In this document: piece after piece, positions 1 through 64,000 of the stretch
Numbering within the stretch: the stretch's first letter is position 1
Layout: each line of letters begins with the position of its first letter
Assembly (NCBI GenBank): GCA_023249645.1
Contig: JAHFCF010000003.1
Span: forward strand, 62,001-126,000
Reading direction: 5' to 3'
DNA: 64,000 nt
Source: Elusimicrobiota bacterium
GTDB taxonomy: Bacteria; Elusimicrobiota; Elusimicrobia; UBA1565; UBA9628
Notes under the pieces: generated by a model
Told to the model about the DNA's origin: nothing
Database searches by the model: none
Seen by the model: the letters and a program-made list of their open reading frames with translations, nothing else
Translations under genes and position numbers: made by a program

Positions 1-1992
1 GATCGTCAGGGCTTTTTGCGCCGCCTTGATCATGGGCTCGGCAGAGATCGGTCCGTTGATGGCCTCTCTCATCCACTCAGCCGGAGTCACGCTGCCGATG
101 CGGCAGAGGCGCTCCATCTCCTTGGCCAAAGAATGCGTCTTGAAAAAATCCTCAACCTGGAAGGCGATGACGTGCCCTAGAGGGTAGTCCGGGATGTAGA
201 GGGCGTAGCAGATGATGTGGGAATAGATGGCCAAGAGCGGGCAATCCTTCCCGCCGAAGAGCGGGGCATAGTATTTGTTCCACACACCCTGGGCGATGGA
301 GACCATGGCGTCGCGCGTCTCGGCGGGCGTGGCTTTCGGATGCTCGTACATCCAATGCCAGATCCGCATGTCCACCAAGGCGACCCCGGCGATCTCGCGC
401 GTCATCCAGAAGTCATCCAAGTCCTTCAAGGCCTGAGCTTTCGCGTCAGGCTTCTTCAGACCGAGGATTTCCAGGTCGCGGGCCTGGAACACGAAGGCGA
501 AGCCTTCGGTGAAGGCCGTGTTGGGCACGCCCTTGAGCAGATACTGGTCCATCTTGTTCAGGGAGAAGACTTGCTCCACGCAATGCCCCAGCTCGTGCAT
601 GGCCACGTTGAAGCCTTGATAATCCATCCCGTCCTTGCCCACGCGCGTTCGCAGATGGGCCTTTTCCTGGCGCATGTCCGCGCCCATGGCATGGCCGGCT
701 CCGCGGGCCGCGTTGACCTCGATGTGGGAGGCGAGGAACTCGGCTGTCTGCGGATCGAAACCGAGCTTGGCGAGGATATGGGGGATGTCCTTGTGGAAAG
801 ACTCCGCCGTGGGATAGCGCTTGCGGATCATGGCGTCGAGCTGATCCTGTGGGAGGCCCTTGGGCGGCTTGAAGGCGTCGTACCAGATGTCGAAGGCATT
901 GAGCTCGCGCTTCAAGCGTTTTTGGATCAGGGAAGCGGTCTCCTTGCCGGCCGGGGCCTCCAGTATGCTGATGAGGATGGCCTCGACCTCGGGCTCTGGG
1001 ATCTCGCGGTTGAGTTGGAAGAGCCTGTCCATGTGCGTGGGATGCGAGGGGTAATAGGGATCTTCCAGGCTGTGGGCGCGCCATACATTGAGAAGCGTGG
1101 CATAGCGTGTGTCCGGCTCGCGCTCAGCCGGCTTGCCATCCAGAGTGTTCTGGATCGGATCCCAGAGGTGGTCCTTGCCGGCCACGGCCGCCTTGGGGAT
1201 CTCCTGGCGGATGATGCGTTCCATGATGGCCTGAATGGTCTTTTGCCGTCCGAGGCCCTTGGGATCGGCGTAGAGGGCCTTGAGCTCGTCGCGTAGGCCC
1301 CAATGCGAGATGAGCTTGAGGTCTTTGCGGAAAAGAGGCTTGCCGTCTGGCCCGGCGACATGGTCCATGGAGATGTCATAGGTGTTGATGTAGTTCTCAG
1401 CCGCCGCGTGAGCGTCGGCCACCTTCTGCTTGACCTCGGCCGGGACGCGGAAGGCGAACATCTGCGCCAGGCGGGCCGCGGCCCATTGCCGGCGATCCCA
1501 GCTCGCGCCGAGCTTCAAGCTTTCCTCCAGGCTCGGGATCGGGAAGTTGAGCAGCACCGTGAAGGCGAGCTTGGACTTGAAGAGATCCGCGCTCAGATGC
1601 GCGGAGGGGGAATAGGCCGCGAACATCTTGTCCATGGGGGAGAGTTCTCCGCGGTCCTCGTCGAGCTCGCGGCGGAGCTCCAGCTCCATGGCCGTGAAAT
1701 GCCCGCGCAGGGCTTCCAGTTTGCTCTGGAAACGGTCGAGGATCAGCTCGCGCTTAGCTCCGACGACAAAATTCTCCATGCAGAACTTCTCAAACTCCTC
1801 GGGCGTTCCGTCCTCGATGGTCCAGCGCAGCGCCGCTTGGCGCACACCGGTCTCTAGGCGCGCCCTCTCGGATGCCGCGACCTGACTCGAGATCTTTTCA
1901 ATGACTTTCTTCACGGGGGCCTCCTGCAGGGCGCTCCGGGCCGGGACGGCGGAGAGGATCGCGGCCGCGGCGAGCGTCTTTGTGATGGTCAT
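1..1992 (-). CDS. Secreted gluzincin-type zinc metallopeptidase (partial, C-terminus beyond window)
   Basis: Minus-strand reading frame open from ATG at 1992 to the window edge; N-terminal signal-like MTITKTLAAAAILSAVPARS; HExxH motif in FNVAMHELGHCVEQ followed by TEGFAFVFQ. Start overlaps the stop of the upstream kinase gene (ATGA). Confidence 0.75.
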   Translation of the reverse strand, partial: MTITKTLAAAAILSAVPARSALQEAPVKKVIEKISSQVAASERARLETGVRQAALRWTIEDGTPEEFEKFCMENFVVGAKRELILDRFQSKLEALRGHFTAMELELRRELDEDRGELSPMDKMFAAYSPSAHLSADLFKSKLAFTVLLNFPIPSLEESLKLGASWDRRQWAAARLAQMFAFRVPAEVKQKVADAHAAAENYINTYDISMDHVAGPDGKPLFRKDLKLISHWGLRDELKALYADPKGLGRQKTIQAIMERIIRQEIPKAAVAGKDHLWDPIQNTLDGKPAEREPDTRYATLLNVWRAHSLEDPYYPSHPTHMDRLFQLNREIPEPEVEAILISILEAPAGKETASLIQKRLKRELNAFDIWYDAFKPPKGLPQDQLDAMIRKRYPTAESFHKDIPHILAKLGFDPQTAEFLASHIEVNAARGAGHAMGADMRQEKAHLRTRVGKDGMDYQGFNVAMHELGHCVEQVFSLNKMDQYLLKGVPNTAFTEGFAFVFQARDLEILGLKKPDAKAQALKDLDDFWMTREIAGVALVDMRIWHWMYEHPKATPAETRDAMVSIAQGVWNKYYAPLFGGKDCPLLAIYSHIICYALYIPDYPLGHVIAFQVEDFFKTHSLAKEMERLCRIGSVTPAEWMREAINGPISAEPMIKAAQKALTI

Positions 1993-4010
1993 GCGATGCG
2001 GCTTTCGAATGCCGTCGAGAAATCTTTGGCGTTGCGGAAGCGTTTCTCGCGGTCCGGCTGCAGCGCCTGCTGGAAGAAATCGTCCAGCCCCGGCACGCCG
2101 GCGGGGGGGAATCGGCCCTCGAGCTTGTCCTGCTGCGCGGTGGGCCCGGAAAAGGGCAGGCGTCCTGAGACCATCTGATAGAGGCTCACGCCGACGGCGT
2201 AGAGGTCGCTCTCCCGGCTCACGGACCCGAAGCCCTGCTCGGGCGCCATGTAGGCCGGAGTGCCCATGACGCAGTCGGTCTGGGTGTGGCCGTCCGGGTT
2301 CTGCGTCCGGTGGGCCAGTCCGAAGTCCATGATCTTGACGGCGCCCTGGGCGATCATGATGTTGGCGGGCTTGAGGTCTCTGTGGATGACGCCTTTGTCA
2401 TGGGCGTAGCCCAAAGCGGAGCAGACGCCGCGCAGCACGGAGAGGCATTCCTTCGGAGCGAGCGGTCCTCGGCGCGCGATGAGGTCATCGAGGGTCTCGC
2501 CTTCCAGCAGTTCGCAGACCATGTAGGACTGTCCATCTTCCTCGACGAGCGCATACACGTCCATGATGTTGGGGTGTTTGAAGTTCGCCACGATGGCGGC
2601 CTCATCTCTGAAGCGTCGGCGCTCTCCAGGATCTGCCCGCAGCGTCTGACAGATTTTCTTCAAGGCCACGCGGCGCTTGAGCTTCAAGTCGATGGCTTCA
2701 TAGACCACGCCCATGCCGCCTTCGCCGATGCGCCGCACGATCTTGTAGGACCCTCCGATGAGGGCGGGGGTATCGCCGGAGATCGGCTTTGGAGATGTCG
2801 GTTCTGCCTTCCCTCTCCGCAGGATGAGGACGAGCAAGAGCAGGAGTAGCGCGGTGCCGGCCAGGATGAGCCAGCCTGTCGTCTGACGGGAGTGCGGGGG
2901 AGCTGGCAGAGGCTGTGGCTTTGGCTGGGCCTGGGCCGTGTGAAGCTCAGCGACGACCGCGCGCATGTCCTCATACTCCTGCTTGTAGCGGGGGTCGAGG
3001 CTGGAGGCGGTCTTGAGGTCGTCGAGGAATGCGTCGGCAAACTGGGGCAGGTCGCCGATCTGTTTGTGGAGTTCGAAGCCGGCCCTGGCCCGGGTGTGGT
3101 AGGCTGTGGCGGCCTTGGGGTTCAGGCGCACGGCCATCTCGGCGTCGTAGACCGCCTCGCGGAAATTCTTGTTGTTGAAGAGGGTCTTGGCCCGGAGCAT
3201 GTAGGTGGTGTCCGAGGCCCATCCCATCTTGATGGCGCGGTCGGCGTCGAGGAAGGCTTCGTTGCCGCGGCCCATCTGCATGTAGACGATGGCGCGCTGG
3301 ACGTAGCCCATGGGGTCGGAGGGGGCGGCGGCGATGGCTTGGTTGGCGAAGGCGAGGGCGGCGTTGAGGTCTCCTTTCTTGCGGCTGGACATGGCGTTGA
3401 CGACGGCCTGGTAGGCTTGGCTCGGATTGGACTTCTGGCGGCTGGTCCAGTCTTCGGGGGAGTGGGCGACGAGGGGATTCTGCTGGGCCAGCTCTTCGGC
3501 GATGCGGCCGGCTGTCGGCGGCACGCGATTTCCGGCGAGCATGTGGACGGAGAAGGCGGCCTTGTTGGTTGGGTCCTGCTTTAAGGCGGCGAGGGCGTCT
3601 TGGTCGGCTGCGGCGTGGTCGCCTTTGGCGTACTCGGCCAGAGAACGAGTGGTTAGAGCTTCGGAGATGGCCTTCGGGTTGCCCGAAGTTTGGGCCGAGG
3701 CAATTGCGTATTTGCTTTGGTCGATGGCTTTGTCGTACTCGCCTGCCTGTGTCAATAGGCTGGTAAAAGCAGTTTGAACTTGGGTATTGGTAGAATTGTT
3801 TTTTGCAATTTCATTACCCCTAGCAATATCTCTATTGATAGCCTCCTTAGCAAGGTCTTGAGTTTTTTGATCTTTTGCAGTCTCAAGATCATGTTGCCGT
3901 CGGTTGATATCCTCGCTAAGTATCTGAAATCCCATAGATTGTTTGTTAATATCACTTGCGAAAGTGCAGGAAACTGGCAGGACGATAGAGAAAACCAATG
4001 AAAGCATCAT
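1989..4010 (-). CDS. TPR-repeat / transmembrane / C-terminal Ser/Thr protein kinase
   Basis: Signal-like N-terminus, TPR-like repeats, TM segment (GWLILAGTALLLLLLVLILRR), kinase motifs GEGGMGVVYEA, HRDLKPANIMI, DFGLA, GTPAYMAPEQ. Confidence 0.93.
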   Translation of the reverse strand: MMLSLVFSIVLPVSCTFASDINKQSMGFQILSEDINRRQHDLETAKDQKTQDLAKEAINRDIARGNEIAKNNSTNTQVQTAFTSLLTQAGEYDKAIDQSKYAIASAQTSGNPKAISEALTTRSLAEYAKGDHAAADQDALAALKQDPTNKAAFSVHMLAGNRVPPTAGRIAEELAQQNPLVAHSPEDWTSRQKSNPSQAYQAVVNAMSSRKKGDLNAALAFANQAIAAAPSDPMGYVQRAIVYMQMGRGNEAFLDADRAIKMGWASDTTYMLRAKTLFNNKNFREAVYDAEMAVRLNPKAATAYHTRARAGFELHKQIGDLPQFADAFLDDLKTASSLDPRYKQEYEDMRAVVAELHTAQAQPKPQPLPAPPHSRQTTGWLILAGTALLLLLLVLILRRGKAEPTSPKPISGDTPALIGGSYKIVRRIGEGGMGVVYEAIDLKLKRRVALKKICQTLRADPGERRRFRDEAAIVANFKHPNIMDVYALVEEDGQSYMVCELLEGETLDDLIARRGPLAPKECLSVLRGVCSALGYAHDKGVIHRDLKPANIMIAQGAVKIMDFGLAHRTQNPDGHTQTDCVMGTPAYMAPEQGFGSVSRESDLYAVGVSLYQMVSGRLPFSGPTAQQDKLEGRFPPAGVPGLDDFFQQALQPDREKRFRNAKDFSTAFESRIA

Positions 4011-4059
4011 GGGCAGATTATGTTAAAATACGTCGGATTTCACAAGGGAGATATTAAAT
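4011..4059. promoter_or_regulatory. Divergent promoter region of the kinase/caspase-like pair
   Basis: Core GGGCAGATTATGTTAAAATA (4011-4030). Minus: -35 TTGTGA (4045-4040), 17-bp spacer, -10 CATAAT (4022-4017), ATG at 4010. Plus: extended -10 TGtTAAAAT (4021-4029) and SD AAGGGAG before ATG 4060. The same 20 bp recurs at 63500-63519 in reverse complement. Confidence 0.7.
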
Positions 4060-5439
4060 ATGCACGCGCTACTTTTACTTCCGAGTCTCTTCTTCTCAGG
4101 CAACGTTAATTCCACAGTTATGCAGCCGCCTGTAGAGAAAAAAATAAAGGAAATTACATTTCATCAATTTATTCAGAACATGCTGGAAACCGGTGCGGAC
4201 TATTCTTTCGACGCTGGTCGATCCGGATTCTTGGAAGTTCCATCAGGGGCACCGTCAAAAACTGCAGAGTCAGATGAGAATTCGGATAATTTCACTCGTT
4301 CCAGCTACCTTGTTTTAAACCCATCTGCTGAAAAACCAGAACCCCTGTGCGTGGTGTTTCATGCTGGAAAAGAGGATCTTCCCAATCGAGAGGAGGCAGG
4401 TTACTACTTTCGTCTCACACCTGGCGGCGTTCTGGAAAAAGCCTTTAAGTCGCAAATCAAACTGGACGAAAAAGGTGAGGCTGTCCTAGGTTCCGGCGTT
4501 GTAACACCTAAGGACATCAGCTCCGTGGAAATTAAGGAGCGTTTCAAGCACGAACTCAACTTCTGGCTCAAAGGGATGTATCGCCTGAGCCCCGAAGAGA
4601 TCGCCGCGCGCAAAGCGGCGGCCAGCGGCGCCGCGGCCAAGCCGCCGGAATCCGTCGCGGTCCTCAATTCCGACGTGGACGAGCCCTCCTACCAAACGCC
4701 TGAAAACCCCGAGAACTATGCCGTCGTCGTTGGCATCGAGAAGTATTCCGACCTCCCGGAGGCGCGCTTTGCCGAGCGCGACGCCCAGGCCGTGCGCGCG
4801 CATCTCGTGGCCTTGGGCTACCCCCAGCGCAACATCCATCTCCTCCTGGGAGAAAAGGCGACCAAGACGGGGATCATCAAGAACGTCGAGACCTGGCTCG
4901 CCAACAACGTCGGCAAGGACTCCACGGTCTTTTTTTACTATTCAGGCCACGGGGCGCCGGAGACGAAATCCCGACAACCCTATCTCGTCCCATTCGACGG
5001 CGACCCGCAGTACATGGGAGACACCGGCTACCCCTTGCAGCGCCTCTACGCCAAGCTCGGAGCCCTCAAGGCCAAGCGCGTGATCATCGCTCTTGACTCC
5101 TGCTTCTCCGGCACGGGCGGGCGTTCGGTCCTGGCCAAAGGCACGAAGCCCCTGATCCTCCAGATGGACACCGCACCCGTCGGGCCCAAGGCCGTCGTCT
5201 TGAGCGCCTCGCGCTTCGACCAGATCTCGGGGACGATGGAGATGCAGGCCCACGGGACCTTCACCTACTTTCTGCTCAAGGGCTTGAACGGCGGCGCTGT
5301 CGATCGGGATGGAGGCATCACCACCCAGTCGCTCTATGACTATCTCGAGCCCAAGGTCGAAGACGCCGCGCGCCGTGAGAACCGCGATCAGGCGCCGCAG
5401 ATGATCCCGCCTAATGCCGCGGACGTCAAATTGAGGTAA
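4060..5439 (+). CDS. Novel N-terminal domain fused to caspase-like (C14/metacaspase) peptidase
   Basis: Caspase-like His motif VFFYYSGHGAP and Cys motif IALDSCFSGTGGRS; NYAVVVGIEKYSDLPEARFAERDAQAV; N-terminal ~170 aa resembles the protein at 62894-63469. Confidence 0.88.
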   Translation: MHALLLLPSLFFSGNVNSTVMQPPVEKKIKEITFHQFIQNMLETGADYSFDAGRSGFLEVPSGAPSKTAESDENSDNFTRSSYLVLNPSAEKPEPLCVVFHAGKEDLPNREEAGYYFRLTPGGVLEKAFKSQIKLDEKGEAVLGSGVVTPKDISSVEIKERFKHELNFWLKGMYRLSPEEIAARKAAASGAAAKPPESVAVLNSDVDEPSYQTPENPENYAVVVGIEKYSDLPEARFAERDAQAVRAHLVALGYPQRNIHLLLGEKATKTGIIKNVETWLANNVGKDSTVFFYYSGHGAPETKSRQPYLVPFDGDPQYMGDTGYPLQRLYAKLGALKAKRVIIALDSCFSGTGGRSVLAKGTKPLILQMDTAPVGPKAVVLSASRFDQISGTMEMQAHGTFTYFLLKGLNGGAVDRDGGITTQSLYDYLEPKVEDAARRENRDQAPQMIPPNAADVKLR

Positions 5440-5755: not shown

Positions 5756-8068
5756 ATGCAGACCGTCGAGATCCAGCGCCAAGTCGACGTCCTGGTCGCT
5801 CAATTCGGCAAGAAGAAGGGCGCGCTCATCACGCTGCTTCAAAAGACCCAGGAGCGTCTGGGCTACCTGCCCCGTCCCGCCATCGAGAGGATCGCAGCAC
5901 AGCTCTCCATCCCCCTGGCCGAGATCATGGGGGTCCTGAGCTTCTACGCCCAGTTCCGGCTCAAGCCCGTGGGCCGTCAGCACATCCGCGTCTGCCACGG
6001 CACCGCCTGCCATGTCTCCGGTGCGGACAAGGTGAGCTTCGCCTTGAAAGAGGAGCTCGGCATCGGCCACGGCGAGACGTCCAAGGACGGCGAGTTCTCC
6101 ATCGAGGAAGTGGCGTGTCTGGGCTGCTGCAGCCTGGCCCCGGTCGTCATGGTGAAGGAGGAGACCTACGGCGCCATGAGCGGCGACAAGGTGAAGAAAG
6201 TCTTAAAAGAGCGGCGCGAGCCCCGTGCCGCTGTACAGCGGCACGGGACCTCTCTGGCCAGCGGGAATAAACCTGTTGAGGGGGTCATCGGCCTTCGCTT
6301 AGGCATGGGCTCCTGCGGCGTGGCCGCCGGCGCGCGCAAGACCTTGGAGACCCTGCTGCGGCTCTTGGATGAGAAATCCGTCTCCTTGAGCCTGATGTCC
6401 ACGGGCTGCAACGGGATGTGCCATCAAGAGCCTCTGCTGGAAGTGCTCTGCAAGGACGGGAAGAATTACCTTTACGGCGGCGTCCATCCTCCGGTTGCTC
6501 AGAAGATCCTGGAGGAGCATGTCCTCGGCGGGCGGCCGGTGGAGAAGCATCTCATCCTCTCGCCGGAAAAGCCCATGTCCGCGCATCCCTTCTACGCCAA
6601 ACAGAAGCGCATCGTCCTGCGCCACTGCGGGATCATCGATCCGGACTCCTTGGAGGCCTACAAGGCCGCCGGGGGCTATGAGGCCCTGCAAAAGGCCCTG
6701 CGCATGAAGCCCGAAGAAGTCATTGACGTGATCTTCAAGTCCGGCCTGCGCGGCCGCGGCGGGGCGGGATTCCCCACGGGGACCAAGTGGAAGTTCGCCC
6801 GGGCCGTCAACGATCCCATCAAGTACGTGATCTGCAACGGCGACGAGGGAGACCCCGGCGCGTTCATGGACCGCAGCGTCCTGGAGAGCGATCCGCACGC
6901 GGTGCTCGAGGGCCTCATGATCGCGGCCTATGCCGTGGGCGCCAACCGCGGCGTGTTCTACGTGCGCGCCGAGTATCCCCTGGCCGTGGAGCGCATCAAC
7001 CGCGCCATGGACCAGGCTCAGAAGGCGGGGATGCTGGGCGAGAAGATCTTCGGGAGCTCTTTTTCCTTCACGGCCAACCTCAAGGAGGGCGCGGGCGCTT
7101 TCGTGTGCGGCGAGGAGACCGCGCTCATCGCCTCGGTGGAGGGACGCCGCGGCATGCCGCGCATCCGCCCTCCCTATCCCGTGCAGTCCGGCGTCTTTGG
7201 GCATTCCACGACCATCAACAACGTGGAGACTTTGGCCTGCGTCCCCTGGATCGTGGACAACGGCGCCGAGGCTTTCGCGGCGTATGGAACGCCGAAGAGC
7301 AAGGGCTCCAAGGTCTTCGCCCTGGCTGGGAAGATCGCGCGCGGAGGCCTCGTCGAGGTCCCCATGGGCATGACACTGCGCGAGGTCATCAACGACGTGG
7401 GCGGCGGGGTACCGTCGGGAAAGAAGGTCAAGGCGGTGCAGATGGGCGGCCCCTCGGGCGGCTGCATCCCGGAGAGCCTCTTTGAGACTCCCATCGACTA
7501 TGACTCCTTGAACGCCACGGGCGCCATCATGGGTTCGGGCGGCATGGTGGTGATGGATGAGACCACCTGCATGGTGGACGTGGCCCGGTTCTTCCTGAAA
7601 TTCACGCAGAACGAGTCCTGCGGCAAGTGCACCTTCTGCCGCATCGGGACCAAGCGCATGCTGGAGATCCTGGAGCGCATCGTCGCCGGAAAAGGCAGGC
7701 CCGAGGACATCGACAAGCTCAAGGACCTGGGCGAGAACATCAAGAAGGCCTCTTTGTGCGGCTTGGGACAGACAGCGCCGAACCCCGTGCTCACCACCCT
7801 GCGCTATTTCGGCGAGGAGTACAAGGCGCACATCGAGGAAGGCCGCTGTCCGGCCAAGGTCTGCAAGGCCTTGATCCATTACGAGATCGACCAGGCCAAA
7901 TGCACGGGCTGCACGCTCTGCAAGAAGCGCTGCCCCTCGGCCGCGATCGAGGGAGAGCCGAAGAAGAAGCATCGCCTCCTCCAGGAGAAATGCGTCAAAT
8001 GCGGGGTCTGCTACGACGTGTGCAACTTCGACGCGGTGGCCGTGGTCTCCGCTGGAAGGGGGAAGTAA
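5756..8068 (+). CDS. Fused NuoE-NuoF-like flavoprotein subunit (HndA+HndC / StnA+StnB type) with C-terminal 2x[4Fe-4S]
   Basis: NuoE-like CHGTACHVSGA...CLGCCSLAP; NuoF N-terminal [2Fe-2S] GSCGVAAGA...TGCNGMCH; NuoF core GLRGRGGAGFPTGTKW, ESCGKCTFCRIGT; two CxxCxxC ferredoxin motifs. Confidence 0.9.
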   Translation: MQTVEIQRQVDVLVAQFGKKKGALITLLQKTQERLGYLPRPAIERIAAQLSIPLAEIMGVLSFYAQFRLKPVGRQHIRVCHGTACHVSGADKVSFALKEELGIGHGETSKDGEFSIEEVACLGCCSLAPVVMVKEETYGAMSGDKVKKVLKERREPRAAVQRHGTSLASGNKPVEGVIGLRLGMGSCGVAAGARKTLETLLRLLDEKSVSLSLMSTGCNGMCHQEPLLEVLCKDGKNYLYGGVHPPVAQKILEEHVLGGRPVEKHLILSPEKPMSAHPFYAKQKRIVLRHCGIIDPDSLEAYKAAGGYEALQKALRMKPEEVIDVIFKSGLRGRGGAGFPTGTKWKFARAVNDPIKYVICNGDEGDPGAFMDRSVLESDPHAVLEGLMIAAYAVGANRGVFYVRAEYPLAVERINRAMDQAQKAGMLGEKIFGSSFSFTANLKEGAGAFVCGEETALIASVEGRRGMPRIRPPYPVQSGVFGHSTTINNVETLACVPWIVDNGAEAFAAYGTPKSKGSKVFALAGKIARGGLVEVPMGMTLREVINDVGGGVPSGKKVKAVQMGGPSGGCIPESLFETPIDYDSLNATGAIMGSGGMVVMDETTCMVDVARFFLKFTQNESCGKCTFCRIGTKRMLEILERIVAGKGRPEDIDKLKDLGENIKKASLCGLGQTAPNPVLTTLRYFGEEYKAHIEEGRCPAKVCKALIHYEIDQAKCTGCTLCKKRCPSAAIEGEPKKKHRLLQEKCVKCGVCYDVCNFDAVAVVSAGRGK

Positions 8069-8069
8069 G

Positions 8070-11000
8070 ATGAAGACCTTCACCTTGAACCTGGACGGCA
8101 AGACGGTCGAGGCCCGCGAGGGGGAGACCCTCCTGCAGCTGGCGCGCCGTCTCGGCGTGGAGATCCCGGCCTTGTGCTATGATCCGCGCCTGCCCCCGTA
8201 CGCTTCGTGCTTCGTCTGCATCGTCGAGGTGGAGGGCCGCCGCGGGGTGGTCCCGGCCTGCGCGACCAAGTGCGAGGCGAACATGACCGTGCGCACGCGC
8301 ACGGAGAACATCGTGAAGCTGCGGCGCATGGCGCTGGATCTCCTGCTCTCCAACCATCACGGCGACTGCACGGCTCCCTGCACCATGACCTGCCCGGCCG
8401 GCATCGACATCCGCGCCTATCTGGCCGAGGTCGCCCACGGCAAGTATGCCAAGGCCCTGCGCATCATAAAGGAAAGAAACCCCTTCCCGTCGGTCTGCGG
8501 ACGCATCTGTCCGCATAAATGCGAGGATTCCTGCCGCCGCCATCTCGTCGATGATCCGGTGGCCATCAATCTGGTCAAGAGGTTCGTGGCTGACCTGGAT
8601 CGTTCGTCCGGAAATCCCTGGAAGCCGTCCCTGCGCCCCAAAAACGGCAAGAAGGTCGCGATCATCGGCGGCGGGCCGGGCGGCATGAGCGCGGCCTACT
8701 ACCTCGTCCAGCTCGGCTACGAGCCCACGGTGTTCGAGGCCATGCCCAAGGCCGGAGGCATGCTGCGCTACGGCGTGCCGGATTACCGTCTTCCTCAGGA
8801 TGTCCTCGACGCCGAGATCCGCCAGATCACGGACCTGGGCGTGAAGCTTGAGCCCCAGAAGACCTGGGGCAAGGATTTTCATCTGGACGACCTGCGGCGC
8901 CAGGGTTTCACCGCGATCCTGGTCGCGGTCGGCGCATGGGGAAGCTCGCGCATGGATGTGGAGGGGGAGGACCGCCCCGGCGTGTGGTCCGGGATCGATC
9001 TGCTCGAGAAAGTGGCCCGAGGAGAGAAGGTCTCCCTGGGCGCGCGCGTCGCCATCGTGGGCGGCGGCAACACGGCCATCGACGCGGCCAGGACCGCGCT
9101 GCGCCTGGGCGCGGCGGAGTCGGCCATCGTCTATCGCCGCAGCCGCCAGGAGATGCCCGCCAATCCCGAGGAGATCCATGAGGCTGAGGAGGAGGGCGTG
9201 CGCTTCCACTTCCTGACCGCCCCCGTCGGTTTCATCGGCGAGACGAAAGTGAGCTCCATGCGCTGCATCCGCATGCAGTTGGGCGAACCCGACCGCACGG
9301 GCCGGCGCCGGCCCGTGCCGATGCCGGGCTCCGAGTTCGAGCTCCCCGTCGATTCCGTGGTCGCGGCCATCGGTCAGAAGGTGTCCTGGGGCCATTTCGA
9401 CGGCGACGGGCTCAAGCTCACCAAGTGGGGCACCGTGGAGGCCGGAGAGCGGACCCTGCGCGCCAGTCAGCCGGATGTCTACGCTCTGGGAGACTGCTTC
9501 ACGGGACCGGCCACGGCCATCGAGGCCATCGCCGCCGGTCGCCGGGCCGCTTTGTCCCTGCATGTGGGCATGTCAGGAGAGCAGACGGAGATCGAACCCC
9601 ATCCCTTCAATGTGACCAAGGGAAAATTGAAAGACCTCGATCGCAAGGATTACGTGCATCATCCCCGCATCGCGCGGTCGAACGCTCCAGCCCTGGAGGC
9701 GTCGCACAGGGCCCGGACTTACGACGAAGTCCAGCAGACCGTTGCGGAGAAGACGGCGGTCGAGGAAGCCAAGCGCTGTCTGTTGTGCGGCTGCCAGGAG
9801 GTCTCATCCTGTCTGGTGCGCCGCTATTCCGGCGAGTACGGAGCGACGGGAGAGGCCTTCGCCGGCGAGAAGCTCAAGCCCGGACCGATCCCCGAGCATC
9901 CCTTCATCGTCCGCGATCCGGAGAAGTGCATCCTCTGCGGCCGCTGCGTGCGCGTCTGCTCCGAGCTCCAGGGCGTGGGGGCCATCGGCCTGGTCGGCCG
10001 CGGCTTCTCGACCCAGGTCATGCCGGCCTTCAACGAGACCCTTCAGGCGGTCAACTGCAAATCTTGCGGCCAGTGCATCGCCGCGTGCCCGGCGGGCGCC
10101 TTGCAGGCGAAGCTTAAAGACGAACGCGCGCCGGCCTGGCGCACGGAGGAGCGCGAGGTCGTCTGCCCCTATTGCGGCACCGGCTGCCGGCTCAAAGTCG
10201 CGCTCGCCGACGAAACCCCGGAGAGGATCCATCACAAGATGGGCGTGGAGCAAGGCGAGATCTCCGTCTGCGCCAAGGGATTCACGGGCTTCGACCTCTT
10301 CACCGGTGAGGAGCGTCTGCGCGAGCCCCTGATCAAGGAGAAGGGCGCTTGGCGCCCGGCTTCCTGGGAGCAGGCCCTGAAGGCGGCTTCTCTCGGGCTG
10401 GCCAGCGCGGCGAAGAAAGGCGGCAAGGGCGTGGCCGTCCTGGGTTCCTCGCGCCTGAGCAATGAGGCGCAGTACCTGCTGCAGAAGATCGCCCGCGCCG
10501 CTCTGGCGACCAACCATATCGGCGGCAAGGGCATCGGCGGCGAGGGAGACGTCTTGGCCCGGGCTTTCGGCGCGAACGTCTCGACGGCGACCCGCGAGGA
10601 CATCGCCCAGAGCGACCTGATCCTGACCGTGGGCCTCGATCCGGAAGCGGAATTCTCCGCCGTGGCGTCGCTCTTGAGGTCAGCTGTGAGCGGCGGGACC
10701 AAACTGCACGTCTTCCACAAGCGGGCCACCGGCGTGGACAAGGCCGCGTCGAGCACCCTGCGCATCGCCTATCCTGATACCTACGCACTCTTTGAATCCT
10801 GGTTGGGTGAACTTCTCAAGCAGAAGAGTGAATTCCCCGGGTCTCAAGAATTGAAGGCGGCTCTGGCCGTGGGTGAAAAACGGGCTCTTTCCGGCTGGCT
10901 CAAGCCGGAGCGCGTCGATCGTCTGCGCGATGAGTTCTTCGCCGCGCAGAGGCCGCTGGTGATCGTGGATGCCTCCAGCATCCGCGACAGCGAATTGGCC

Positions 11001-43237: not shown

Positions 43238-43267
43238 ACGAGCAGATTATCTTAAAATTCGTGTACA

Positions 43268-55840: not shown

Positions 55841-59085
<3,245 letters not shown>

Positions 59086-59086
<1 letters not shown>

Positions 59087-59835
59087 TGAATATAAAATCA
59101 GCTGCCATGACGGCACTGTGGTTTTTCGCATCGCCGGCCCTTGCCTTGCCTCCCGCGGAAGCGGTCGAGGCCTTGGCGGCGGACGCGTCCGACCGCGATG
59201 CCCTGTGGAAGCTCGTCTCCAACTGTCTGAGCGATGAAAACCACGAGGGCGCCGAATATTGCGCGAACTGTTCCTCTCCCCTGCTCCCTCTACTGCCGAC
59301 CTGCTCCAACACTCGCGGCTGGAGCGCGTACACCATCTGCCGCCACTCGACGGAGGTCTGGCTTCAGACCTCGGAATTCGTCGCGATCAGAGGCAGCCGG
59401 ATGTGCGGCTGTCCCGAGAGCTTCGTCCACGGCATGGCGCTGCCCCTGCGCCAGGTGACGGGCGTCGAGGATCCATCCAAGCCGGCCGGCCTATGGCAGT
59501 TCTCCTGGGAAGAGGCGAGCGCGAAGATCTCCGACAAGAACGAGATCGTCCTGGCCGCCAATCCGCGCAGCCGCCGCACGCAGGACCAGCTCCACATCCA
59601 CCTCATGCGTCTGGCCAAGGGCGCGCGGACAAAGCTCATGGATCTTCATCCGACCAGGGTCAGGAGCCTCTCGGACGTCTGGGGTGTCGCCGCGCGGCAC
59701 GCCGCGGCCGCTAGATCGCCGAGGAACAATTACGGCGTCGCGGTCGTCCGCGACCAGGAGAACGACGGGTTTCTTGTCGCCACTTCTCCCAGGAATCTCG
59801 AGCGCCTGCTCGGCGAGTACTCCTGCAGGCCTTGA
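59086..59835 (+). CDS. CDP-diacylglycerol diphosphatase-like (Cdh/HIT-fold) secreted protein
   Basis: Signal peptide; FVHGMALPLRQVTGVEDP; RSRRTQDQLHIHLMRLAKGART. Start overlaps the hsdR stop. Confidence 0.7.
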
Positions 59836-59983
59836 ACGCTTCGACGCGCGAATTTTATGTTTCATTTGACAAATCAGCCTACCAATAAATATAGATTAAA
59901 TAATAACAAGCAAATGTAAGGATTATTCCTATATTTTAAGCTTGCTTCTTGTCACAGAAAACTATGGATTTGTGTGACAAAAT

Positions 59984-60826
59984 TTAACGCGAAAGCGCCT
60001 TAAAGAAGCCGTTCAGGACGCCAAAAGCCGCCTCGATATCCTGCGGCAGCCCGCACTCAGCCGCCATGACCGCGAAAGGCCGCTGCCATGCGCTGGGAGG
60101 CGGTTCCAGGTTGAGAGGCAGGGCGTGCGTCTTGCGCCGCTTGAAAGTCGCCGCGATGTCCGCAGCGGTCTTCTTCTTGTCCAGCGTCCCGCCAATCAAC
60201 AGCGCCATGTCCACGAGGTCTCTGGCGCGCGAGTTGGGAGTCTGCCGCGGGAGCGTGTAGGCGTGGAGTTTCTCGGCGAAATGCTGTTCCTTGGAGATCG
60301 TGGGGAATTTCCCCGGCCGTATTCCAGCGAACTTGAGCCAATCGCGGCCATGGGTCATCTCGAGGGGCGTGAGGACCACGTCGCCGGCCGCGACATCGAC
60401 ATGGAACTTGACGAAGGTCCTGGCGTCCATGCTGGCCTCCACGGGGAAGCGAGCCCCTCCATAGGGGGCGGCATCGAGATCCCGCATGATCTCACCGACC
60501 TGGAACTCGAAGAAATCCCCGAGGTCCAGCGCGACGGCGTTTCTCAAGGCTTCGAGGGTCGCCTCATTGGGGGATGCGCGACGCAGGACGAGATCTATAT
60601 CCCTCGTGGCTCGGGCCTCATGCATGCGCAGCTCCAGAGCGTAGCCGCCTTTGAGGACCCACGGAGCGTCGTCCCGGGCGAAGAGACGCGCCAGCAGGCG
60701 GTCGAAGGCGACCTCGCGGCGCACGCGCTCCAACGCAAGGCGCTCCTTGGCCGCGATCAGCTTGAGCCGATCCTCAAGGGCGCGGCGAAACGCCGTGGCC
60801 GTGGCGTATGTCTTCGGCTTATCCAA
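59984..60826 (-). CDS. abiEii: AbiEii-type nucleotidyltransferase toxin, second pair
   Basis: PWVLKGGYALELRMHEARATRDIDLVLRRASPNEATLEALRNAV. Confidence 0.85.
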   Translation of the reverse strand: MDKPKTYATATAFRRALEDRLKLIAAKERLALERVRREVAFDRLLARLFARDDAPWVLKGGYALELRMHEARATRDIDLVLRRASPNEATLEALRNAVALDLGDFFEFQVGEIMRDLDAAPYGGARFPVEASMDARTFVKFHVDVAAGDVVLTPLEMTHGRDWLKFAGIRPGKFPTISKEQHFAEKLHAYTLPRQTPNSRARDLVDMALLIGGTLDKKKTAADIAATFKRRKTHALPLNLEPPPSAWQRPFAVMAAECGLPQDIEAAFGVLNGFFKALSR

Positions 60827-61433
60827 GGGGCTTGTCCCTCAGCCGCTCGATCTGCCGCTTGATGCTGTCGGGGATCCTGGCGGCGCTTTTGAGCTGGCTG
60901 CGTGTGATGAGCCCGCGCTGGAAGGCCTGCTTCACCGCCTGTTCCATGTGGTCCATCTGGACCGAGCCTTCGGCCAGGAGGTCCGCGATGGTGCGCAGCG
61001 GCCTGGTGATCCTGAACCCCTGCGCAGCCTGCACGTCATCTTTATGGAACGTTCCCCGATGCAGGACGAGCACTTTCGGGAGCTTGCCGCTGCGTCTGAA
61101 CCGCGCAGGCACCGTCATATGCAGCTTGGAGGGGTTGACGTCCGAGAGGTCATGGAAGCTCAGGGCCGTCTGGTGGGAATAGACCCCCTGCGGCTCGCCG
61201 GCCTGGCTGCGAGACCAAAGGTACCACAGCACCATGTCCGAGTGCTCTGCCAGCGGATACTTCGCCAGCCGATAGATGCCCCTGTGCTCACGGATCCAAT
61301 TGCCGGCCTTGACGTGGAATGAGTGCACGTTGTCAGTATAGCCGGCTTCAATGGCCTGCTTGGTGGTGAAGTAGCCTTGCTGATCCGCGGCGATCCCATA
61401 GAGGCGATCGTAGGTGGCTCTATATTTGCCCAT
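60819..61433 (-). CDS. abiEi: AbiEi-type antitoxin, second pair
   Basis: GYFTTKQAIEAGYTDNVHSFHVKAGNWIREHRGIYRLAKYP; overlaps the toxin gene start. Confidence 0.85.
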   Translation of the reverse strand: MGKYRATYDRLYGIAADQQGYFTTKQAIEAGYTDNVHSFHVKAGNWIREHRGIYRLAKYPLAEHSDMVLWYLWSRSQAGEPQGVYSHQTALSFHDLSDVNPSKLHMTVPARFRRSGKLPKVLVLHRGTFHKDDVQAAQGFRITRPLRTIADLLAEGSVQMDHMEQAVKQAFQRGLITRSQLKSAARIPDSIKRQIERLRDKPLG

Positions 61434-62476: not shown

Positions 62477-62522
62477 TCCAGAGAGATTGCGCAGACACAG
62501 TCTGAAAAATTGAAGCAATCAC

Positions 62523-62549
62523 AATATTCCAGACAGTGTCTGGAATATT
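62523..62549. repeat. 27-bp inverted repeat downstream of the Gre-factor gene
   Basis: AATATTCCAGACA-G-TGTCTGGAATATT. Confidence 0.9.
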
Positions 62550-62580
62550 GGTTAGGAATGCCCTTCGCGCCACTGTGCCG

Positions 62581-62636: not shown

Positions 62637-62899
62637 AAGTAATAGGACATTTTCAAAATACATATATGTCCCGCCCCCCTGGCAGTCAACAAGCCCTGGA
62701 AGAACGCCGCCGCCGCGCACTGACCCTATTCAGGCAGGGTGTGAGCGCCATCGAGGTCGCCAGAAGGATCGGCTGCGCGCGCAGTGCGGTCTATGCGTGG
62801 TGGCATATATTCCGCGAAGACGGATCAGAAGGCCTCAGAGCCAGGCTGATACCGGGAAGGCCGCGCCAAAGCCCTTGAGCGGGGAATGTCCTATTACTT
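62637..62899 (+). mobile_element. 263-bp TIR-bounded element encoding only an HTH domain (IS-derived)
   Basis: 15-bp perfect TIRs AAGTAATAGGACATT (62637-62651) / AATGTCCTATTACTT (62885-62899). Confidence 0.75.
62666..62878 (+). CDS. IS630-like transposase N-terminal HTH domain (70 aa)
   Basis: RRRALTLFRQGVSAIEVARRIGCARSAVYAWWHIFREDGSEGLRARLIPGRPRQ. Confidence 0.7.
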   Translation: MSRPPGSQQALEERRRRALTLFRQGVSAIEVARRIGCARSAVYAWWHIFREDGSEGLRARLIPGRPRQSP

Positions 62900-63469
62900 C
62901 GTCGGGGCGGCGGGCTTGTCTGTCGGCTTGCGATACATGCCTTTGAGCCAGAAGTCGAGCTCGTGCTGGAGGCGGTCTTTGATCTCTTTGGAGCCGATGT
63001 CTTTGGGCTCCGGAACGCCTGAACCAGGGATAACCTTTCCACTCGCATCTCGCTTCCCATGAAGCACGAATGCTCTATCTAAAACCCCTTTCTGCGTGAG
63101 GCGGAAATAATAGCTTTCTCTTTCTAATTTTTCCGGGGTCTCCCTGACCGTAAAGAGCACCAGGCAAATGGGTGTAGGATTGTCCGCAGAAGGGTCGAGG
63201 ACCAAGGCGCTGTTATGGCCCATATCATCAGTCGCCTTGCCAGAAGAAAATCCTCGTCCTCTGATCGGTGCACCTGTCGGAACATCCAGGAATTTAGCCC
63301 GTCCGGCCCCAATGGTCGAGTTCTCGCCATCCTTGAGTATGTGCTGGATAAAATCCGGCATGGTTATGGCGCTTGCTTCTTGATTGTGATTTGTAACTAA
63401 ATTCTTAGGTGTTGTAGCCTGGACTGCCGATGTTAGACTGGTTGCTAAGAATAAAATTGAGAAATTCAT
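62894..63469 (-). CDS. Paralogue of the N-terminal domain of the 4060-5439 protein, lacking the caspase-like domain
   Basis: YYFRLTQKGVLDRAF...GSGVPEPKDIGSKEIKDRLQHELDFWLKGMYRK versus YYFRLTPGGVLEKAF...GSGVVTPKDISSVEIKERFKHELNFWLKGMYRL. Start refined from 63583 to the signal-peptide Met MNFSILFLATSL. Confidence 0.85.
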   Translation of the reverse strand: MNFSILFLATSLTSAVQATTPKNLVTNHNQEASAITMPDFIQHILKDGENSTIGAGRAKFLDVPTGAPIRGRGFSSGKATDDMGHNSALVLDPSADNPTPICLVLFTVRETPEKLERESYYFRLTQKGVLDRAFVLHGKRDASGKVIPGSGVPEPKDIGSKEIKDRLQHELDFWLKGMYRKPTDKPAAPTK

Positions 63470-63522
63470 TGTTTTTTCTCCGTCTTGCGCAAAGCGGCCT
63501 ATTTTAACATAATCTGCCCAAG
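63470..63522. promoter_or_regulatory. Divergent promoter region of the right-end module
   Basis: TATTTTAACATAATCTGCCC (63500-63519) is the exact reverse complement of 4011-4030. Plus: -35 TTGCGC (63485-63490), 17-bp spacer, -10 CATAAT (63508-63513), ATG 63523. Confidence 0.7.
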
Positions 63523-64000
63523 ATGCTCGCCCTTCTATTTGCATTCTTATTTCACTTATCTGGATACTGTGCTGATCCTCCAAAAAATCCTCCGCCTATA
63601 CCTGGTGCAGGATCAGACTTTCAGGGCATGAGTGCAGATGATGAGGCAACCAGTATCAATCCTGAAGTCAAAAAGGCTCAAGATGCCTTTCAGAAAACAA
63701 AAGAAGCGGCGGCGCGCATGAAGGACAAGGTGCAAGCCGCTCATCAGGTCGGCGCGGCCCAGGCGACGCGCGACGCCATCATCAACGAGCAGATCAAGGC
63801 GGATCCCAGCCCCGCCACCTACAACAGCGCCGGACTCGCCAAGCTTTCGGACGGCGACTACCGGCAGGCCCACGACTACGTCGACCGCGCCAAGACCCTC
63901 GCCGCGAGCGATCCCAGCAAACTGGCCCCCTTGTACGACACGAGCGCGCGGATCTATTTCGAGGAGCGCAACTACGCCCAGGCGGCCAAGGAAGCCAAGC
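63523..64000 (+). CDS. Secreted TPR-like protein (partial; possible TPR-kinase paralogue)
   Basis: Frame open from ATG 63523 to the window end: MLALLFAFLFHLSGYCADPPKN...SAGLAKLSDGDYRQAHDYVDRAKTLAASDPSKLAPLYDTSARIYFEERNYAQAAKEAK. Confidence 0.7.
   Translation, partial: MLALLFAFLFHLSGYCADPPKNPPPIPGAGSDFQGMSADDEATSINPEVKKAQDAFQKTKEAAARMKDKVQAAHQVGAAQATRDAIINEQIKADPSPATYNSAGLAKLSDGDYRQAHDYVDRAKTLAASDPSKLAPLYDTSARIYFEERNYAQAAKEAK

Follow-up and report, generated by a model that had tools for sequence, protein, structure and literature searches.

At the right end of the window (the whole 64,000-nucleotide stretch analysed here, on contig G000:C20 of a host genome assembly of 2.27 Mb in 38 contigs), the minus strand carries a gene at positions 62894-63469 (ATG at 63469, stop codon ending at 62894) that encodes a 191-aa protein. 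This protein consists of a predicted signal peptide followed by a domain of about 155 aa, denoted DOM here, which ends in HELDFWLKGMYR. Export is predicted from the hydrophobic N-terminus, recognised by inspection; signal peptides and transmembrane (TM) helices were judged throughout by simple hydropathy and by eye. As originally predicted, the protein aligns with the N-terminus of the caspase protein encoded at 4060-5439 on the plus strand, at the left end of the window (BLASTP: 48% identity and 65% positives over 146 aa, E = 1e-43), and the alignment closes with the block HELDFWLKGMYRK / HELNFWLKGMYRL. The score of 136 bits compares with 24.6 bits for the best of 1000 shuffles of the other sequence. 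The left-end protein joins DOM (residues about 28-180) to a C14 caspase domain (residues 220-448; PF00656, E 9.8e-16, above the cutoff) with a His297/Cys348 dyad; the match to the model "caspase, EACC1-associated" (NF047832) reaches 89.5 bits, below the curated cutoff of 140. The right-end protein stops after DOM and lacks a caspase domain, in agreement with the original prediction. These are the two copies of DOM in the host genome assembly, both located within the window.

Each DOM gene lies head-to-head with a gene for a tetratricopeptide repeat (TPR) protein, in mirrored orientation at the two ends of the window, with 53 bp between the start codons of the right pair and 49 bp between those of the left pair. 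The left-end partner (1989-4010, minus strand) is predicted to comprise a signal peptide, a TPR ectodomain, one TM helix (at about residue 379) and a C-terminal Ser/Thr kinase domain with intact HRD and DFG motifs (PF00069, E 1.2e-51). The PASTA kinase model NF033483 matches only the kinase part of this protein (E 4.5e-75), at 253.8 bits, below the curated cutoff of 450. The right-end partner starts at 63523 on the plus strand and extends past the window end at 64000 to coordinate 64731, which gives a protein of 402 aa with a predicted signal peptide, TPRs, a single C-terminal TM helix and a basic tail. The complete protein contains TPRs and no kinase domain, and a tblastn search detected no kinase remnant downstream of the gene. 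Thus, the right end does not carry a second copy of a kinase/caspase module, as had been proposed: the partner lacks the kinase and the exported protein lacks the caspase. The presumed relationship between the two TPR proteins stands at the level of a weak similarity when the complete right-end protein is used (33% over 120 aa, E = 8e-08); the similarity of its in-window part alone is not above chance. The structural model of the TPR ectodomain is poor (pLDDT 62). The host genome encodes further TPR-kinase proteins, including a tandem pair, that have no adjoining DOM gene (L144, G000:C18:3836-8879, and L145, G000:C35:1-1695).

A 20-bp promoter block, GGGCAGATTATGTTAAAATA, is identical in the two divergent pairs. 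It is located at 63500-63519 (minus strand) and 4011-4030 (plus strand), with an extended -10 element (TGTTAAAAT) reading into DOM. The block occupies the same position and orientation relative to both genes in both pairs, with 0 such occurrences expected by chance, and about 20 related divergent pairs of other genomes have a TGnTANAAT element conserved in the same place. We considered this motif as a module-specific operator and rejected the possibility: because unrelated divergent genes of the host genome also have the core between them (at window position 43240 and in L136), the block is best described as an ordinary extended -10 promoter. The near copy at 43240-43259, with 3 mismatches, lies between genes identified by eye as an MFS-type transporter and a histidine-phosphatase-like protein.

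Several other features surround the right-end pair. Leading up to it, region 55841-61433 encodes a type I restriction HsdR-like protein followed by an AbiEii/AbiEi type IV toxin-antitoxin pair. A perfect palindrome, CAATATTCCAGACA-G-TGTCTGGAATATTG, present in a single copy in the window (62522-62550), is a possible trace of a mobile element, and a 70-aa open reading frame with a transposase-type helix-turn-helix (HTH) lies close to it (62666-62878). Beyond the window, the right-end TPR gene is followed by two tandem genes for related exported proteins (window coordinates 64775-65554 and 65578-66351; L004:6776-7555 and 7579-8352). The first of these proteins contains a HEARHAE motif and is a possible metallopeptidase without a Pfam match; it was rejected as a third component of the module, given that no homologue was found in the other loci.

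DOM is an undescribed, unannotated family: no Pfam or NCBIfam model and no PDB sequence matched it. A profile built from 20 members, including the right-end protein itself (which matches it at 1.5e-66), detected DOM in 31 of the 59 genomes of one Elusimicrobiota order, with up to 8 copies per genome, and produced 2 matches, both weak, in the remaining 286 genomes of the phylum. Thus, DOM is almost confined to one order, and its named relatives are from Elusimicrobia metagenome-assembled genomes (MAGs). The most conserved positions, G48, G128, E170 and W174, are invariant in 20 sequences. DOM is fused to ankyrin repeats in L062; in L125 it appears joined to a tRNA methyltransferase, which may be a genuine fusion or an assembly join. 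A viral origin of DOM was rejected, as no relative was found among viral contigs. A role of the pair in anti-phage defence was likewise rejected: no PADLOC model matched DOM or the right-end TPR protein, and the PADLOC matches of the left-end kinase and caspase are to generic domains.

The AlphaFold model of DOM is a compact independent domain (pLDDT 88.3, pTM 0.83) consisting of a helix, a short strand, a second helix, antiparallel strands and a long C-terminal helix. This arrangement of an antiparallel sheet and a long C-terminal helix is common among small-molecule-binding domains, and the weak, non-significant fold matches include lipocalin, PRELI/START-like and SnoaL-like proteins. DOM could therefore sense or bind a small molecule or a wall component in the envelope, with the TPR protein serving as the membrane part that reads its loaded state. 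We regard this as a rather unlikely alternative, however, considering that Foldseek searches of the PDB and of viral models returned nothing at E <= 0.001. No known fold is matched in these two sets, and we do not claim a new one.

Head-to-head pairs of DOM with a signal peptide-TPR-TM gene were identified in 22 loci. In 14 of these, the partner carries a C-terminal Ser/Thr kinase (L005, L038-L041, L044-L046, L048, L052, L057, L060, L098 and L103; in L038, DOM is interrupted and split over two short frames); five partners have no kinase (L004, which is the right-end pair, L036, L056, L059 and L058, the last being a 141-aa mini form assigned to TPR proteins by eye); and three are cut by contig ends (L035, L099 and L100). 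Another 15 loci show a co-directional arrangement, with DOM first, often a 4-bp overlap (genes of the related loci were called with a home-made tool that places starts roughly), and a signal peptide-TPR-TM partner of ~370-410 aa without a kinase (L104, L109, L111, L112, L114, L116-L122, L124, L127 and L129; three partners are cut). The right-end pair has both components of this module, a predicted exported DOM protein and an adjoining signal peptide-TPR-TM gene.

The association was quantified with the TPRs of the window as queries and with the window loci excluded, in place of a first adjacency test that was circular, its profile having been built from the neighbours themselves. A TPR match was found in 34 of 121 DOM neighbours, compared to 5 of 488 other genes (odds ratio 38, p about 5e-21). 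With a partner profile, itself derived from these partners, a TPR-TM gene was detected directly adjacent to 39 of 69 DOM genes, nearly always divergent upstream or on the same strand downstream; about 30 of the 69 have no recognisable TPR neighbour, some of them at contig ends, the MAG contigs being fragmented. The pairing holds in both gene orders. The conserved companion of DOM is a receptor-like TPR-TM protein, not a protease. Co-expression alone could explain the pairing. The recurrent position of DOM beside a receptor-like protein that often bears a kinase suggests a dedicated partner-receptor signalling pair.

All 14 partner kinases retain the HRD motif, and DFG is canonical in 12 of them, with DFD in L038 and DLG in L048; hydropathy predicts a single TM helix between the ectodomain and the kinase in every complete case. 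Conservation of catalytic motifs bears on the possibility that both genes are parts of envelope assembly or maturation, the TPR protein being a scaffold and DOM its exported client, with no signalling involved and with kinases added secondarily to some scaffolds. Such a role would accommodate the 15 co-directional loci, in which the partners have no kinase and which occupy their own region in both the DOM and the ectodomain trees, but fourteen divergent partners bear kinases with conserved catalytic motifs, for which a pure scaffold would have no use, and we consider this explanation quite improbable.

Fusion to a caspase is the exception in this family. Because no second DOM-caspase fusion was detected among about 70 DOM genes, the caspase-less right-end DOM represents the usual state, and the notion of the kinase/caspase module as an ancestral unit is not supported. 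The left-end fusion resembles prokaryotic caspase homologues (orthocaspases, PF00656) in its C14 domain with the HC dyad, from which the right-end copy differs in lacking a caspase altogether. Exported caspase-like proteins (L151-L170 among them) are massively expanded in the order, with varied N-termini and an SDVDxP-type linker before the caspase domain. Caspase matches were obtained in 54 of the 59 genomes, with 10 matches in the host genome and up to 28 in another, in contrast to a 2012 survey that placed Elusimicrobia among the groups without metacaspases (PMC3501461). Metacaspases with a TM helix or a signal peptide are known (PMC3501461). By eye, the N-termini of 20 sampled other caspases include lipoprotein-like and ankyrin-like regions. 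Such N-termini were rejected as distant relatives of DOM, since the DOM profile had no match in 22 N-terminal regions. Given that the left-end fusion is the sole one found and that the sampled caspase N-termini lack DOM, the fusion arose once, as far as the data show.

In a tree of 65 DOM sequences, the two copies from the window are sisters (support 100/71), with L034 and L035 next to them. In the ectodomain tree, the two TPR proteins of the window are not sisters (p-AU 0.029), which is moderate evidence because the right-end ectodomain forms the longest branch of that tree (1.64). Of the duplication that was originally proposed, the part concerning DOM holds, in view of the sister relationship, the two copies in the assembly and the common promoter block, whereas duplication of the module as a whole is doubtful, as the TPR ectodomains are not sisters and the right-end partner lacks the kinase. 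Trees of the two components disagree elsewhere as well. L056 combines a DOM from a divergent-pair clade (100/99) with an ectodomain of the co-directional type (100/100), and the two trees are similarly discordant for L059. Because the pairing persists despite this discordance, partners appear to have been exchanged but kept; both cases point to partner exchange.

Kinase-bearing and kinase-less divergent pairs coexist in four genomes (G000, G009, G018 and G035). The four kinase-less divergent partners that are long enough for the tree occupy four separate positions among the ectodomains, which hardly fits the view of the right-end copy as a decaying duplicate that lost its kinase and is disappearing as a pair. 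Decay would account for the absence of the kinase and for the long branch of the ectodomain, and the HTH frame and the palindrome lie nearby. However, neither right-end frame is disrupted, the hydrophobic N-termini and the TM helix are in place, and the promoter block is perfectly conserved, so we regard decay as highly improbable.

On balance, we consider it somewhat probable that the right-end pair belongs to a recurrent two-gene module of the envelope, in which docking of DOM on the TPR ectodomain determines the signalling state of the receptor, the kinase-less copy being a decoy or a co-receptor. Under this model, a small exported DOM protein would be made together with the TPR protein, whose repeats would be anchored by one TM helix and face outwards from the cytoplasmic membrane; export of both proteins, the single membrane span and the internal location of the kinase are predicted from hydropathy and position. 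With a kinase-bearing partner, such as the left-end protein, the docked DOM would control the cytoplasmic kinase across the membrane, in a layout similar to that of type I receptor kinases, and the right-end TPR protein would be a decoy or a co-receptor. All of these roles, from binding of the ectodomain by DOM and control of its output to that of decoy or co-receptor, are proposed by association. The same docking surface would carry the caspase of the left-end DOM to the receptor, and the existence of a DOM-caspase fusion fits such recruitment of a protease. The suggestion that DOM is a partner independent of the protease is borne out insofar as DOM occurs without a protease and has the TPR-TM gene as a conserved companion; its function as a partner is a prediction from these genomic data.

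The left-end partner resembles membrane Ser/Thr kinases of the PknB/PASTA type (NF033483) in its kinase domain, single TM helix and outside sensor. It differs from them in the reversed order of these parts, with an N-terminal TPR ectodomain behind a signal peptide and a C-terminal kinase, in the lack of PASTA repeats and in the dedicated exported protein encoded alongside. LuxP/LuxQ and ChvE/VirA are examples of sensor kinases that work with a periplasmic binding protein; they involve histidine kinases and partners of the sugar-binding type. The likeness is limited to the proposed logic, an exported protein docking on the ectodomain of a membrane kinase, whereas the DOM system has a Ser/Thr kinase or none, a TPR ectodomain and an unrelated small domain.

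We found no literature on TPR kinases of Elusimicrobia. More broadly, and tentatively, DOM may represent an undescribed family of dedicated protein partners for type I receptor-like Ser/Thr kinases with TPR ectodomains, with decoys, partner exchange and one caspase-armed lineage, a possibility to which we assign a low probability. To our knowledge, an input has been identified for only a minority of bacterial membrane Ser/Thr kinases. In the present case, a candidate input is encoded beside the receptor-like protein in dozens of loci and is therefore directly testable, and the caspase fusion provides a natural hint at what the receptor might recruit.
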